This document shows positions 17,234 to 63,732 of a stretch of DNA of 64,000 bases, in pieces; positions within the stretch are counted from its first letter, which is position 1, and each line of letters starts with the position of its first letter. The DNA is taken from NCBI GenBank assembly GCA_913063165.1, contig CAJXZL010000006.1:1-64000 (forward strand), in the 5' to 3' direction. The notes beneath the pieces were generated by a model, which worked only from the letters and a program-made list of their open reading frames with translations, did no database searches and was not told the DNA's origin. Position numbers and translations under genes: made by a program. This stretch comes from an uncultured Saccharospirillaceae bacterium (GTDB taxonomy: Bacteria; Pseudomonadota; Gammaproteobacteria; Pseudomonadales; Natronospirillaceae).

Positions 17234-18592
17234 GTGTCGATAGAACTCATTATTATCAGCATCATTTTCGTTTTCGGATACATCGCGATTGCGACTGAAC
17301 ACAGCATTCATATAGACAAGACCGCTTCTGCGTTACTTACAGGCGTTTTGGTTTGGACCGTTTACATTCTTTCGTCTAGCACGCTTGTAGATATTTCGAG
17401 TTTGCCACAGTGGTTTTTGGACGAGCATAGCCTAAAAGACGCTACCGAAATCGCAACGACTTGGGTGAGTCACCATCAGTTAATTGAATCCTTGGGCGAG
17501 ATATCTAGTATTTTGTTCTTCTTGATGGGTGCGATGACCATTGTAGAGCTGGTGGATACCTATGGGGGCTTTTCAGTTATCACTGACCGCATCAAATCAA
17601 CAAGCACCGTAAAATTATTGTGGATTGTGGGACTCATTGCATTTTTCCTATCAGCTGCATTGGACAACCTGACTACCACCATCGTCATGATTTCTTTGTT
17701 GCGCAAGCTAGTTTCCTCTAGAGAAGACCGACTGTTTTTTGCGGGCATTATTGTGATTGCAGCAAATGCTGGTGGTGCATGGTCTCCTATCGGTGATGTC
17801 ACCACCACCATGTTGTGGATCGGCGGGCAAATTAGCTCCCTGAACATCATGAAAGCCCTGATTTTGCCAAGTTTAATTACCATTATAGTACCCTTGGTAT
17901 TCTTGTCATTTACCCTACGGGGTAAGCGGGTGACTACTCCTGAAGCGTTGCCAGAGAACATCCATTATCAGGTGAGCGCTGGTCAGAGAAACCTGATTTT
18001 TTCGATGGGAATGTTGGGTTTGTTGTTTGTTCCGGTGTTTAAGACCATTACACACCTGCCGCCGTTTATGGGCATGCTATTCAGTATGTCTGTGCTATGG
18101 GTGGTCAGTGAGCGTATGCACAAGAAAAACTGTGAAGAAGTGGTGAGTGCCGGCCTTCACTTTGTGACTGTCTTGAAGCGTATTGATACGGCCAGCGTGT
18201 TGTTTTTCCTAGGTATCTTGTTGGCAGTTTCTGCCTTGCAGGCCACAGGATTATTGGCGTCAGTTGCACTTGGGTTAGACAAATCTGTTGGCAACATGGA
18301 CATTATCATCTTTTTGATTGGCCTGTTGTCTTCTGTCGTAGACAACGTGCCATTGGTTGCGGCCGCAATGGGCATGTATGACATGGTGACATTCCCAATG
18401 GACCATGAAATGTGGGAATTTTTGGCCTATGCAGCTGGTACTGGAGGTAGCGTACTTATTATTGGTTCTGCAGCTGGCGTTGCTGCTATGGGCATGGAAC
18501 GCATCAACTTCTTTTGGTACATGAAAGTGATGTCGCCACTTGCCCTGATTGGGTATGTAGCAGGTGCGGTGTTCTACCAATTCGTGTTATAA
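17234..18592 (+). CDS. nhaD: Na+/H+ antiporter NhaD
   Basis: The 452-residue polytopic inner-membrane protein is of the NhaD type in the ion transporter superfamily. Recognisable blocks are HIDKTASALLTGVLVW, FFLMGAMTIVELVD, ALDNLTTTIVM, NAGGAWSPIGDVTTTMLW and SSVVDNVPLVAAAMGMY. It exchanges cytosolic Na+ (or Li+) for protons at alkaline pH and is common in marine and halophilic bacteria. The start is GTG with GGAG upstream. Confidence 0.95.
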   Translation: MSIELIIISIIFVFGYIAIATEHSIHIDKTASALLTGVLVWTVYILSSSTLVDISSLPQWFLDEHSLKDATEIATTWVSHHQLIESLGEISSILFFLMGAMTIVELVDTYGGFSVITDRIKSTSTVKLLWIVGLIAFFLSAALDNLTTTIVMISLLRKLVSSREDRLFFAGIIVIAANAGGAWSPIGDVTTTMLWIGGQISSLNIMKALILPSLITIIVPLVFLSFTLRGKRVTTPEALPENIHYQVSAGQRNLIFSMGMLGLLFVPVFKTITHLPPFMGMLFSMSVLWVVSERMHKKNCEEVVSAGLHFVTVLKRIDTASVLFFLGILLAVSALQATGLLASVALGLDKSVGNMDIIIFLIGLLSSVVDNVPLVAAAMGMYDMVTFPMDHEMWEFLAYAAGTGGSVLIIGSAAGVAAMGMERINFFWYMKVMSPLALIGYVAGAVFYQFVL

Positions 18593-18677: not shown

Positions 18678-18768
18678 CATGGTTGAACGACATGGTTGAA
18701 CGACATGGTTGAACGACATGGTTGAACGACATGGTTGAACGACATGGTTGAACGACATGGTTGAGCGA
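18678..18768. repeat. Tandem array of seven 13-bp units
   Basis: Seven head-to-tail copies of CATGGTTGAACGA start at 18678, 18691, 18704, 18717, 18730, 18743 and 18756. Six are identical, and the last has one A-to-G change. The unit is not a multiple of three, and all frames meet stops, so it is non-coding. It lies between the nhaD terminator and the convergent RND gene. It has no spacers, so it is not CRISPR. Confidence 0.95.
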
Positions 18769-19085: not shown

Positions 19086-22000
19086 TCAGCTATGCCTTGC
19101 TTGCGCGAGCCGCTTGTCCTTGCGACGCTCCTTTAACACCAACAGGGTTGGGGTCAAAAATAGGGTAAGTATCGTGGTGTAGGTGAGTCCACCGGCAATG
19201 GCAGTTGAGAGCTGTGTCCACATTTCTGAGGATGGTGCACCCACTGTAAAGTCGCGGGATACTAAATCAATGTTCCATTGCAGCACCATGGGTACCAAAC
19301 CGAGAATGGTGGTGATCGTGGTCAGGAAGATTGGACGTAAGCGCTGCGCACAGGTGAGCAATGCCGCCTCAAATGCCGGTACATTCTGACGTCTGATAAC
19401 GTTAAAGGTATCGATCAATACAATATTGTTATTGACGACAATGCCGGCCAAGGCGATTAAGCCAACACCGCTCATCACCACGCCAAATTGGTCGCCAGTG
19501 ATTAAGATGCCAAGTAATACACCTGCTGAAGAAAACAGAATAGCCGATAATATCAGGGTCGTTTGATACAGGCTGTTAAATTGTGTCACTAGCACAATGA
19601 TCATTAAGAAAATCGCGACACCAAATGCCTTGCCGAGGAAGGCACCTGTTTCAGCTTGTTCTTCTTGGTCGCCTACAAATGACACGCCCACGTTTTCAGG
19701 AATCTCGCCATTGGCATACGATTTTTTAAACGCTTCAGTGAGTTCGACAATGACCTTATCAATCTTCATCCCTTCTTTGACGTTCGCATCTATCTTGAAG
19801 CTAAGTTTGCCGTCAACCCGATAAATTTCGCCCTGCTTGTCCCGTGCATTACGGGTAATAAAGTTGGATAGCGGAATCTGCTGTCCACGAACGGTCAGGC
19901 TGAGGTCATCAATTTGGTCAAGATCGCGCTCGTTGTAGGGATACCGTAGCCGAATATCCAATTCATCATCTGTGTCATCTGGACGATAAGTGCCGACCTT
20001 TAAGCCATTGGTAATCATGCGAATAGATGACCCTACTGATGCAACGTCGGCTCCGTAGCGACTGGCAGCTTCACGATCAACAGTGATTTGCCATTCAATA
20101 CCATCGAGGGGTAAGTTGTCAGAAACATCTACCAAAGAGGGGTGGTCTCGCAATTTTTGACTAACCATCAAAACCGTATCGTGCAAGACTTCTAAATTGT
20201 TAGACACAAACTGCAATTGTATGTCGATACCTGATGTAGGGCCCATAGCGGCTTCGGATTTCTCGATAAAGATGCCCGGAATATCTGCCGTTTTGGCAAC
20301 AATTTCTTCTAAAATCGGCCCACTCTTACGTCTGAATTTCCAGTCAACCAATTCAACCTGGATCACACCGATCGCGTCGGCTGCATAATCGCGTAAGGGT
20401 GTGGCTGAGGTCTTGGTAAATACAGTGCGCACTTCTGGCAAACCGAGAATCCGCGCTTCTACCGTTTTCATGATGACGTCTTTTTCTTCAAGCGACAGGT
20501 TGCCACGTGCGCGCACAGCAACACTGCCGAAGTCGGCGCCCATGTCTGGGAAAAACAAAACGCCACGATCGGCTTGGATGAACAATCCCAATACGGAGGC
20601 AGCGAATGCCAATACCAACATAATGGTGGTAATGGGGTAGGTAAGTGCAATCCGCAAGACACGAATATAAGTTTTGGTAGAGCCAGTTAGCTTGGTTAGG
20701 TCACCATGGGCTGTGCCAGTCAATGCTGCTCTTTCTTTAACGCTCAACGGTGATGGCTTGCCGAAGTAGAAGCCAAGTGTGGGTACCACTACCAATGAAA
20801 TGATGAGCGAAGAACCTAGCGTAGCGATGACGGTGATGGGTAGGAATTTCATAAATTCCCCCATGATTCCTGGCCAGAAAAGCAACGGCAGGAATACGAC
20901 CAGCGTAGTCACGGTTGACGAAATGATCGGCCAAGCCATGCGAATTGCCGCTTCGCGATAGGCTGACTTGCGGTCTGCCCCTTCGTTCATGCGCCGGTCG
21001 GCAAATTCAGTCACAACAATCGCCCCATCGACCAACATCCCAACCGTGAGGATCAAGGCAAAAAGTACGACCATGTTGAGGGTGTATCCCATTGACGACA
21101 GTATCAAGATACCGGCAAGGAAGGACGAGGGAATGGCGATACCCACCAAAAAGGCGGAGTTAGGACCCAATGCCCAAATGATGACCACAAATACCAATAC
21201 GGTAGCAAATAGAACATTGTTAAACAGATCTCTGAGCTGCGATTTCACAGAGATAGACTGATCTTGGAAATAACTGACTTGAATACCATCAGGCCAAAAG
21301 GGTGCCACTTCGGTGATGACTGCCTTCACAGAGTCGACAGTGTCGATGATGTTTTGACCTACGCGTTTTTTGATTTCCAAGGTAACCGCTTGTTTGCCTT
21401 GAACCCGGGAAATCACCGTTTTGTCGAAATACGCACGCTGTCCGTATGCCACATCTTTAAAGCGGACAACGGTGTTGCCATCCACCTTGATGGGGAGGTT
21501 TAGAATATCTTCCTCAGACTCTAGTAAGCCTGGCACTTTGACCGAAAAGCGGCCTGCTCCCGAGTCCAGATTACCTGCTGTCACTAACTGGTTATTGCGG
21601 GACACCAAGTTGATTAGGTCAGATTGCGAAAGATTATAGGAGGCCATTAATTGTGGGTTTACTACAATTTCGGCTACTTCTTGACGGGTGCCACTGATAG
21701 TGGCCTCAAGTACCCCGGGCAACGCCTCCAGTCGGTCTTGCAAATCTTCTGATACCGCCTTGAGTACGCGTTCATCTATGTCTCCAGCCAGTGCGATACC
21801 AAGGATCGGGAATAGCGCGACGTTGATTTCGTTTACTTTCGGATCCTTTGCGTCAGCAGGTAGCTGTCCTTTGGCGGCATCCACAGCAGTCTGTGTATCG
21901 GCCAATGCGGTATCGATATCGACATCGGTATTGAATTTCAGCATCAATGATGCATGACCTTCACTGGCTGTCGACGTTAATTCATCTAAGCCATCAATCC

Positions 22001-22220
22001 CTTTAAGCTCTTTTTCTAACGGGCTCACCAGCATGGAGTCAGCGTCGTTTGGAGAGATACCTTCAAGTGATACAGATACATAAGCCATGGGAATCGTGAC
22101 ATCAGGAAACGATTCTTTAGGAATGGAATTCAGTGAAAAAATACCGGAAGCCACTAGCAAGAAAAACAAAAGCAATACGGTACGTGAACGTGATAGCAGA
22201 GCCGTAATTAATGCATTCAT
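19086..22220 (-). CDS. RND-family efflux permease (HAE1-like)
   Basis: The 1044-residue inner-membrane pump has the twofold RND layout: a first helix near residues 12-30, a large periplasmic porter domain, helices about 330-530, a second porter domain and C-terminal helices. The proton-relay helix reads GMLVDGAIVVTEFADR, so the second of the two aspartates found in AcrB is replaced by glycine. The helix equivalent to the AcrB lysine site reads GIVVNNNIVLID. The substrate is unknown. It starts 10 bases after the adaptor stop, clearly one operon. No outer-membrane channel gene is adjacent. Confidence 0.92.
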   Translation of the reverse strand: MNALITALLSRSRTVLLLFFLLVASGIFSLNSIPKESFPDVTIPMAYVSVSLEGISPNDADSMLVSPLEKELKGIDGLDELTSTASEGHASLMLKFNTDVDIDTALADTQTAVDAAKGQLPADAKDPKVNEINVALFPILGIALAGDIDERVLKAVSEDLQDRLEALPGVLEATISGTRQEVAEIVVNPQLMASYNLSQSDLINLVSRNNQLVTAGNLDSGAGRFSVKVPGLLESEEDILNLPIKVDGNTVVRFKDVAYGQRAYFDKTVISRVQGKQAVTLEIKKRVGQNIIDTVDSVKAVITEVAPFWPDGIQVSYFQDQSISVKSQLRDLFNNVLFATVLVFVVIIWALGPNSAFLVGIAIPSSFLAGILILSSMGYTLNMVVLFALILTVGMLVDGAIVVTEFADRRMNEGADRKSAYREAAIRMAWPIISSTVTTLVVFLPLLFWPGIMGEFMKFLPITVIATLGSSLIISLVVVPTLGFYFGKPSPLSVKERAALTGTAHGDLTKLTGSTKTYIRVLRIALTYPITTIMLVLAFAASVLGLFIQADRGVLFFPDMGADFGSVAVRARGNLSLEEKDVIMKTVEARILGLPEVRTVFTKTSATPLRDYAADAIGVIQVELVDWKFRRKSGPILEEIVAKTADIPGIFIEKSEAAMGPTSGIDIQLQFVSNNLEVLHDTVLMVSQKLRDHPSLVDVSDNLPLDGIEWQITVDREAASRYGADVASVGSSIRMITNGLKVGTYRPDDTDDELDIRLRYPYNERDLDQIDDLSLTVRGQQIPLSNFITRNARDKQGEIYRVDGKLSFKIDANVKEGMKIDKVIVELTEAFKKSYANGEIPENVGVSFVGDQEEQAETGAFLGKAFGVAIFLMIIVLVTQFNSLYQTTLILSAILFSSAGVLLGILITGDQFGVVMSGVGLIALAGIVVNNNIVLIDTFNVIRRQNVPAFEAALLTCAQRLRPIFLTTITTILGLVPMVLQWNIDLVSRDFTVGAPSSEMWTQLSTAIAGGLTYTTILTLFLTPTLLVLKERRKDKRLAQARHS

Positions 22221-22230
22221 GTGTTTGGTC

Positions 22231-23313
22231 CTATCGCGACTGTGCTGGTTTGGCACCAGCAACGGCAACCGCTTTCTGACCGGTTGTTACAAATCCTTGT
22301 CCAACGGTTATCAGATGAACCCGCTCTGGGAGACCCGCTACCCAAATACCCTGAGGTGTTGACTCGATAATGTCGATGTTATGGAACATGACAAAGCCAT
22401 CGTCACTTAATGCCTTGAGCCCAAGCTCACCGTCATCATCCAGTATCAATAACGCAGGTGACACGAAATGAGCGAATTTTGGTTTGAGTGGCAGTTTCAC
22501 AACAGCTGAGGCACCCGCAAGTGGGCGGTCAACCGGTTGGTTGATTTCAAATTCAACAGAGAATGTTCGGGTTGCCGCATTTGCCATCGTGTCTATATAG
22601 GTAGCAATACCGACCAGTTGCTCGCCCTGTACCAGTTCGATGGAGGCAGTCTGACCGATGGCAATATAGGCAATGTCGTTTTCAGACACATCGGTAATGA
22701 CCTTCAATGTTGAAAAATCAACCAACTCGACAACTGGGTCTCCATTTCTGATGACACTGCCGGCTTCTACCAATGAACGATTGATAACGCCGTCAAATGG
22801 TGCCCGAATATCGGTGTACGCGAGCTGGTATTCAAGACCCAGTGTTTGCGCCTTGGCTTGTTCTAATTGTGCTAACGAAGCGGCTGATTGGCTCGCGTTT
22901 TGAAAGCCTTGCTTCACCAATTTTTCAGTGGACAAGTATTCTTGTAACCGCTGTTTTTCGAGTGCTTTTGATGCGGCGATACGCGCAGGTAAATCGGTAG
23001 TGTCCAATCGGGCAAGTAGGTCGCCACGCTCGACACGTTCCCCTTTAGCAAAAGGCACCTTGAGTACCTTTCCGCCAGTTTCTGATTTGACGGTAATACT
23101 GCGTTTGGCTGCTGTTTGGGCATTCAGAGTAAGGTATTGTATTACCGATTCAGCGTGCATTATCTCGGTCTGTACGCGAGGTAGCAAAGCGGTGGGGGCT
23201 GAAGCGCCGACTTCAGGCGCGATTTCGCCGCGCAAAAAAACGCCCGACCAGATCCATGCAGTAACAGATAATGTGAGCACCCAGGCTAAAACAACACCGA
23301 TTCTAATTTTCAT
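22231..23313 (-). CDS. RND efflux periplasmic adaptor (membrane fusion protein)
   Basis: The 360-residue protein has an N-terminal membrane or signal helix (about residues 5-25), a lipoyl/barrel-sandwich half (SETGGKVLKVPFAKGERVERGD), a coiled-coil hairpin (about 110-160) and the second lipoyl half (YTDIRAPFDGVINRSLVEAGSVI). A beta-barrel follows. It bridges the RND permease encoded downstream to an outer-membrane channel encoded elsewhere. The hairpin is short. There is no lipobox, so it is probably anchored by its N-terminal helix. Confidence 0.92.
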   Translation of the reverse strand: MKIRIGVVLAWVLTLSVTAWIWSGVFLRGEIAPEVGASAPTALLPRVQTEIMHAESVIQYLTLNAQTAAKRSITVKSETGGKVLKVPFAKGERVERGDLLARLDTTDLPARIAASKALEKQRLQEYLSTEKLVKQGFQNASQSAASLAQLEQAKAQTLGLEYQLAYTDIRAPFDGVINRSLVEAGSVIRNGDPVVELVDFSTLKVITDVSENDIAYIAIGQTASIELVQGEQLVGIATYIDTMANAATRTFSVEFEINQPVDRPLAGASAVVKLPLKPKFAHFVSPALLILDDDGELGLKALSDDGFVMFHNIDIIESTPQGIWVAGLPERVHLITVGQGFVTTGQKAVAVAGAKPAQSR

Positions 23314-62090: not shown

Positions 62091-62254
62091 TGACAATCCA
62101 ACACCCTAATGTCGGTAGTCTCCTACTATTTTACGTTGGGAATAAATGGATGTATTCGTTATATTAGTAATCACTGTTTACTTGGCATTTTATTGATAGG
62201 TCAGCCGACACGATTTAGCCCATACAATTTAGCCCATAGGATAGAGGTATTACA

Positions 62255-62662
62255 TTGGAATTCAGAAGGCATGGGGAATACGAAATCAAGGTAATGGATG
62301 ACCTACTGTTTATTGATGCGAAAGGCCCCTTCAACAGTGAAGCTGTTCACGACTTTCAAAAAAGCCTTCATCTGGCCACGATGACCCTCGAAAACCTGCC
62401 TCGCTGGTACCAACTAGCCGTACTGCATGAGGTCAGCATATTTACCCCAGATGCCATGGATGAGCTATTCAAGGTGACCCAATGGCGCATGACGAAGGGC
62501 CTTGCTGCCTCAGCGGTTGTTTTTGTTGGCACGATGAGTAAGCAATTGTCCCGAATCCAGATTGGCGCGATGTATCAAGAGCTGGGTCTTAAGCATGAGT
62601 TCTTCGACTCGGTTGAGGCGGCGACCAGTTGGATCGACAACCTGCGATCTGAGTCACCCTAA
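62255..62662 (+). CDS. Small STAS/SpoIIAA-like protein, unknown
   Basis: The 135-residue soluble product has alternating strands and helices (VMDDLLFIDAKGPFN, then YQLAVLHEVSIFTPDAMDEL) that look like the STAS/SpoIIAA fold. No phosphorylatable Ser motif is obvious. Function is unknown. The start may be TTG at 62255, with AGAGG upstream, or ATG at 62294. It precedes the aldo/keto reductase by 86 bases in the same direction. Confidence 0.6.
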   Translation: MEFRRHGEYEIKVMDDLLFIDAKGPFNSEAVHDFQKSLHLATMTLENLPRWYQLAVLHEVSIFTPDAMDELFKVTQWRMTKGLAASAVVFVGTMSKQLSRIQIGAMYQELGLKHEFFDSVEAATSWIDNLRSESP

Positions 62663-62748
62663 CGGGGTGTTATTCGCCTAAATCAATGGGATTTAGCCCG
62701 TTGCAGCAACGATAATCTACAGATGACTTTATAGTTGGGGACTGCACT

Positions 62749-62838
62749 ATGTCTGAACGATCAATGTCTGAACGATCAATGTCTGAACGATCAATGTCTG
62801 AACGATCAATGTCTGAACGATCAATGTCTGAACGATCA
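62749..62838 (+). repeat. Tandem array of six 15-bp units spanning the start codon of a reductase gene
   Basis: Six perfect copies of ATGTCTGAACGATCA begin at 62749, 62764, 62779, 62794, 62809 and 62824, followed by a degenerate seventh. Each unit encodes Met-Ser-Glu-Arg-Ser in frame, so each provides a possible start codon. A GGGG site precedes only the first ATG. Confidence 0.95.
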
Positions 62839-63732
62839 AAGTCAGCACAAGCAAAATGGCGCGATACCGAATTTGTCCAAGGCTATTGGCGTTTGGCTGA
62901 TTGGGGAATGTCTACGAGACAATTAATCGATTTTATCGAGGCACATATTGACCTTGGTATTACCACTGTTGACCATGCAGACATCTATGGTGATTACCGA
63001 TGTGAGGCACTATTTGGCGAGGCAATGCAGCAAGCGCCGCACCTGCGCAACCAATTGAAGCTAGTGACGAAATGCGGTATCGCATTGGTGTCTACTAACT
63101 ATCCCGACCGAATCGTCAACCACTACAACACCACACCTGAGCATATTCGGCAATCGGTTGAGAACAGCCTGCGTTTGCTAAGCACCGATCACATTGATCT
63201 GTTACTGATTCATCGTCCCGATCATTTGATGGATGCCGATGCTGTTGCTGAAGCATTTAATGCCATTCAGAAATCTGGAAAGGTTGGGCAATTCGGCGTG
63301 TCTAACTTCACGCCGATGCAATATGACTTGCTGCAGTCGCGCTTGGATACGCCACTTCACACCAATCAAATCGAAATAAACCCTTTGTCACTGGGCGTAT
63401 TTCAGGATGGCAGTCTTGAGCACCTACAGCTACATGGGGTTAGGCCGATGGCTTGGTCGCCACTTGCCGGTGGACGGATTCTGCACGAACAGAGCACACA
63501 AGCGCAGCGTGTCCGAGCTACGCTAGCCACTGTCGCGCACGAACTTGGTGACTTTAGTCTTTCCCAAATGGTGTATGCATGGATTCGACAGCTGCCTGTG
63601 AATCCTATGGTAGTGATAGGCTCTGGTAAAACGGCACGGATTGCGGAAGCGCTAGCGTCAAAAGATATCCAGTTGTCACCTGAACAGTGGTACCGTATAT
63701 GGGTGGCTGCAACCGGCACCAATGTACCCTAA
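62749..63732 (+). CDS. Aldo/keto reductase, YdhF-like, with repeated N-terminus
   Basis: The 327-residue product starts with a six-fold MSERS repeat (residues 1-30), then a standard aldo/keto reductase barrel. The barrel has TTVDHADIYGDYRCE (catalytic Asp and Tyr), LKLVTKCGI (catalytic Lys), LLLIHRPDHLMDAD (catalytic His) and a C-terminal VIGSGKTARIAEA NADP-binding region. It belongs to the YdhF-type branch with unknown substrate. Without the repeats, the protein would match the usual length of about 297 residues. Which repeat ATG is used is not known. Confidence 0.88.
   Translation: MSERSMSERSMSERSMSERSMSERSMSERSKSAQAKWRDTEFVQGYWRLADWGMSTRQLIDFIEAHIDLGITTVDHADIYGDYRCEALFGEAMQQAPHLRNQLKLVTKCGIALVSTNYPDRIVNHYNTTPEHIRQSVENSLRLLSTDHIDLLLIHRPDHLMDADAVAEAFNAIQKSGKVGQFGVSNFTPMQYDLLQSRLDTPLHTNQIEINPLSLGVFQDGSLEHLQLHGVRPMAWSPLAGGRILHEQSTQAQRVRATLATVAHELGDFSLSQMVYAWIRQLPVNPMVVIGSGKTARIAEALASKDIQLSPEQWYRIWVAATGTNVP

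Follow-up and report, generated by a model that had tools for sequence, protein, structure and literature searches.

A gene for a YdhF-like aldo/keto reductase from an uncultured Saccharospirillaceae bacterium opens with a tandem array whose 15-bp unit begins at the start codon itself, so that the array can grow or shrink in whole units with the used start held in place. We infer that it is a near-neutral coding minisatellite in which replication slippage multiplied the opening five codons of the gene (probability roughly 0.7), and that it is probably unstable. The features below are numbered along the window, that is, the whole stretch of 64,000 nucleotides that was analysed.

62737..62740, + strand: GGGG, the sole Shine-Dalgarno-like (SD-like) stretch, eight bases before the first ATG
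62749..62838, + strand: 15-bp array, six perfect copies of ATGTCTGAACGATCA; unit ATG TCT GAA CGA TCA, encoding Met-Ser-Glu-Arg-Ser
62749..63732, + strand: YdhF-like aldo/keto reductase gene, 327 aa if the full array is counted and 302 aa from the last copy
62824..62826, + strand: ATG of the last copy, coinciding with the homologue N-terminus, 19 residues before the G of the GYWRL motif
62839..62853, + strand: the 15 bases after the array, encoding KSAQA, identical to the unit at 10 of 15 positions

The array and the enzyme behind it

The perfectly periodic tract of the ATGTCTGAACGATCA array covers 62749-62839, 91 bp, and thus runs one base past the sixth copy. All six copies are in frame with the ORF 62749-63732, and the array has what defines an in-frame coding minisatellite, namely tandem units with a length that is a multiple of three, lying within an ORF (6 x 15 bp). 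The array is far above chance expectation: when the window was resampled 200 times under a first-order Markov model, perfect arrays with a period of 5-40 and three or more copies reached 20 bp at most. The original prediction of six perfect in-frame copies, each with an ATG, is therefore borne out by the sequence of 62749-62838, as is its corollary that a change of one unit alters the N-terminus by five residues. The 15 bases before the array match the unit at only 5 of 15 positions, and the KSAQA-encoding stretch after it is perhaps a decayed repeat copy or a chance likeness.

The ORF product scores 167.9 bits against the Pfam family Aldo_ket_red (PF00248; cut-off 24) over residues 44-317. 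Its closest solved structures are 7twz, 4r9o, 1ur3 and 1og6, with E values from 1.2e-102 to 5.1e-99, and the next group follows at 5.2e-61; 1ur3 and 1og6 are named YdhF, while 7twz and 4r9o are named putative reductases only. YdhF-type chains are thus the best solved relatives and stand apart from the next group, which places the protein with the YdhF type. With E. coli YdhF (PDB 1og6, 1ur3), 288 residues align at an E value of about 5e-99, and by this alignment the E. coli protein lacks the extra 25 N-terminal residues of the window protein. In addition, D75, Y80, K108 and H155, which we take to be the Asp-Tyr-Lys-His catalytic tetrad of aldo/keto reductases, are invariant across 27 aligned sequences (the window protein and 26 homologues). 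Judged by its sequence, the reductase domain looks intact. A search for viral relatives gave none. Directly upstream of the reductase gene lies a small ORF, 62255-62662 (135 aa, TTG start), with no Pfam or NCBIfam match.

We next compared the N-terminus with those of homologous genes. A first search gave matches in 45 of 57 genomes, the source genome included, and yielded 30 loci, of which L002-L022 were scored and the more distant L023-L030 omitted; a second gave matches in 51 of 390 genomes at E <=1e-60, again including the source genome, with loci taken from the best matches only. The 50 loci scored were reduced to 39 by removing four duplicates and seven without the motif as written (L031 included). 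In 33 of these 39 homologues the start with the best SD pairing lies 15-20 residues before the G-x-W motif; the count was 31 of 39 before L138 and L141, which a loose motif had first anchored five residues late, were re-anchored to a corrected distance of 17 each. In the remaining six the distances are 11, 12, 13, 13, 21 and 49 residues, and homologue L008 has its best-scoring start, a GTG, at 49 residues (-2.6 kcal/mol) and an ATG at 20. In the window gene, the distance to the motif is 44 residues from the first, SD-supported ATG and 19 from the last. Consistent with this, residue 15 of 1og6_A aligns with residue 40 of the window protein, gap-free over the 45 residues shown, so that residue 1 of 1og6_A extrapolates to Met26, the Met of the sixth copy, on the assumption that chain 1og6_A starts at its native Met.

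The tail had been described as unlike a normal aldo/keto reductase N-terminus. That description fits the extra 25 residues, to which nothing in the scored homologues corresponds, but does not fit the last copy, which sits at the normal N-terminus: two Pseudoalteromonas homologues (L031, L032) begin MSEGKSKR, showing that the last copy and the following KS are not foreign to the family.

One may ask whether the (MSERS)n tail has a function of its own: it might form a helix or a spacer for binding a partner, a membrane or another subunit, with its length under selection. AlphaFold2, run with the 27-sequence alignment, draws residues 5-38 as one helix, and the charge of the tail is balanced, with six Glu and six Arg, both of which would suit such a role. 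However, block pLDDT is 55-70 for residues 1-40, whereas past residue 40 the mean pLDDT is at least 95 in 23 of 29 blocks of ten residues, and the helix carries little weight because most aligned rows are gapped at residues 1-40. In the N-terminal region, none of the 39 scored homologues carries a peptide of 3-8 residues repeated exactly in tandem. We consider a selected tail function unlikely; most likely the array is tolerated as a tail extension outside the barrel.

Translation start and copy number

The anti-SD sequence pairs at -5.5 kcal/mol with the 20 bases upstream of ATG 1, a value equalled or beaten by 10% of 1500 random window positions, so the SD-like site before ATG 1 is modest. 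For ATGs 2-6 the value is +0.3 kcal/mol, which 85% of the 1500 random positions match or improve on. The single ribosome site of the original prediction is thus confirmed, in that SD-like pairing occurs at ATG 1 only. Above ATG 1 there is no other in-frame ATG, GTG or TTG, and from ATG 1 the frame runs without a stop into the gene body. The one promoter-like match, 62136-62165, is no better than chance and lies >500 bp upstream of the array. Translation most likely starts at ATG 1 and would then place an (MSERS)n tail ahead of the barrel. Since the homologue N-terminus falls at the last copy and the sole SD-like site lies before the first, the extra MSERS units appear to have come in behind the ancestral ribosome site, separating it from the rest of the gene.

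The coincidence of the last Met with the homologue N-terminus would also fit translation from the last ATG only, with the upstream copies serving as an untranslated leader. Yet the last ATG has no SD-like site before it, and ribosomes starting at ATG 1 would meet no stop and read through to it, which makes this alternative quite improbable.

Because the unit measures 15 bp from the first ATG, no change by whole units alters the reading frame, the distance from SD to ATG or the opening 15 bases of the ORF. The original prediction that copy number would move the start relative to the ribosome site is therefore not upheld: the unit begins at the ATG, and the spacing stays constant. We modelled mRNAs with 1-12 copies to look at local structure. 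Throughout this range, accessibility (the unpaired share) stays at 0.44-0.47 for the SD site and at 0.46-0.50 between -20 and +13. The first ATG is 0.70-0.92 unpaired, alternating between odd and even copy number, and the local 70-nt fold has a predicted energy of -13.1 kcal/mol with one copy, -9.7 with two and -9.0 with three or more. The alternation in ATG pairing and the shift in fold energy would allow small effects on expression, chiefly from the first expansions. Nothing like an on-off change with copy number appears in the models, and no expression switch is expected. RNA structure as a function of the region was rejected, as the start region 62700-62860 folds worse than 198 of 200 shuffles (z = +2.0).

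Spanning the start codon to the fifth codon, the unit leaves the array free to grow or shrink without touching the frame, the ribosome spacing or the first codons. This raises the idea of a start-codon minisatellite that buffers itself, its hypervariable tail of polymorphic length, possibly far above six units, adjusting some property of a housekeeping enzyme other than expression; we hold this to be quite unlikely.

We also weighed whether the array might be a contingency locus, its repeat number setting the amount of enzyme through a shift between start and ribosome site or a choice among ATGs. In favour of this, the array lies at the start codon and every unit has an ATG, perfect arrays of such a kind can be unstable, and in the models the pairing of the first ATG alternates with copy number. 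On the other hand, whole units leave the frame and the SD-ATG spacing unchanged, whereas a phase-variable contingency locus is defined by changes in frame, promoter spacing or ribosome-site spacing; the later ATGs lack an SD-like site; and the SD region is steady in the models. We therefore regard tuning of this kind as decidedly improbable. A DNA-level role for the one GATC in each unit, as a cluster of Dam/SeqA-type sites, is very doubtful indeed, given that the D12-class methyltransferase family PF02086 has 0 matches in the draft genome (98% complete; the same search found it in 4 of 14 control genomes, E. coli included) and that GATC occurs 247 times in the window against 247.0 expected.

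Copy number and the limit of the assembly

The figure of six must be read together with the way in which the contig was assembled. Two pairs among the 42 contig ends of the genome overlap by exactly 77 bases, which suggests a de Bruijn assembler run at k = 77. At this k, a repeat with a 15-bp unit stays free of cycles up to a tract length of 77+15-1 = 91 bp (k+p-1), precisely the length observed. Any copy number from 6 to 12 gives the locus one and the same set of 77-mers, whereas the 78-mers for six and seven copies differ by one. Six is thus a minimum copy number, though the true number may be six, and since an assembly at k=77 would show a longer array alike, the perfect identity of the copies is partly made by the method. 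As set out in the relevant part of a review (PMC6868369), de Bruijn assembly resolves a repeat only if the whole repeat is shorter than k, and newer assemblers such as SPAdes handle repeats better by using several k-mers; a multi-k assembler of that type could have counted six truly.

Other arrays in the genome were examined in the same light, including a second one in the window.

18678..18768, + strand: seven copies of the 13-bp unit CATGGTTGAACGA (last copy 12/13), non-coding, between convergent genes

This array lies shortly after a terminator-like hairpin behind the gene at 17234-18592 and before the convergent gene 19086-22268 (minus strand), and its perfect tract, at 87 bp, is likewise of a length at which assembly with k=77 does not resolve copy number. 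Its units each hold an ATG and are nevertheless non-coding, so an ATG within a repeat is by itself no sign of start-codon function. Both window arrays contain the core ATGNNTGAACGA, but a genome-wide repeat family built on it was rejected and the likeness judged a coincidence, with two matches outside both arrays against four for a reversed control. Nor is the genome unusually rich in repeats: its 16 arrays in 917 kb amount to 1.74 per 100 kb, and the 7 arrays in 400 kb sampled from three family members to 1.75, both small counts.

The sample of 917 kb, 36% of the genome, holds 16 perfect arrays. Seven of them are at least 58 bp long, a limit chosen after the list had been seen, the next shorter arrays being 57 and 51 bp. 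Six of these seven span 77 to 77+p-1 and the seventh equals 77+p; they are not independent, as three stand at contig starts, near k by construction, and two belong to one cluster in L108. The 400 kb from three related genomes contained four arrays of at least 58 bp, measuring 85, 104, 633 and 693 bp. Four of the 42 contig ends inspected lie in tandem arrays, at the starts of contigs C2 (L037 1-77), C10 (L044 1-90), C17 (L051 1-92) and C13 (L047 1-60). Three of the four arrays are perfect, and their units measure 10, 16 and 15 bp. Contigs thus seem to break at arrays, and arrays longer than those shown probably exist.

Two further repeats were noted along the way. At the end of contig C7, L075 1524-1563 holds CCCAAG x6.7, one frame of which gives Pro-Lys repeats within a 100-residue ORF that overlaps an ORF on the other strand. 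L108 4535-4740 (contig C4) holds 11-, 20- and 22-bp repeats clustered around GGCAGTT, between two minus-strand ORFs.

Origin of the array and its meaning

In the near-neutral minisatellite that we favour, the ancestral gene would have carried a single ATG-TCT-GAA-CGA-TCA behind its ribosome site. Slippage would then have duplicated exactly the first five codons, leaving every copy in frame, and each duplication would move the old start away from the ribosome site while an identical start takes its place. Translation from ATG 1 would yield an enzyme with an (MSERS)n tail ahead of the barrel, and each unit gained or lost would change the length of this tail by five residues; expression would hardly respond, and activity probably not much either.

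The array resembles bacterial in-frame coding VNTRs as they are presented in the part of the source cited (PMC3352902), which likewise have a short unit, a multiple of three, in an ORF, and change amino-acid repeats without a frameshift; isolates of Burkholderia pseudomallei are reported there to differ by such in-frame repeat changes. Unlike those repeats as described there, the unit of the window array begins at the start codon, and its variation is deduced. The GCAGA repeats of pil1 in Streptococcus gallolyticus, in the portion of the account cited (PMC3894217), are similar in that a tandem repeat early in a translated stretch alters peptide length. The pil1 repeats, however, are 5-bp units of a leader peptide that shift the frame and act on a terminator, whereas the window array has whole units in frame and lies in the enzyme gene itself; in-frame changes of the pil1 repeats kept the wild-type expression pattern, according to the same portion. 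The TAACTGA direct repeats of marine Beggiatoaceae also lie beside start codons, but, as far as the cited section describes them (PMC4679880), form a dispersed heptamer family upstream of starts, mostly over the expected ribosome site, in contrast to the single array downstream of the ribosome site here. No bacterial in-frame repeat spanning a start codon was recognised by title or abstract start among the literature matches listed, which cover few subscription journals.

Short-read assembly can give the same copy number for any array above its limit, so strain comparisons based on assemblies of that type could falsely read this array as fixed at six. The in-frame minisatellite at the start of the YdhF-like gene is real, striking-looking and ordinary. 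Its meaning lies in its geometry, which decides the effect that a repeat has: a start-codon repeat that looks like a switch is predicted to be near-silent for expression, because the start in use never moves.
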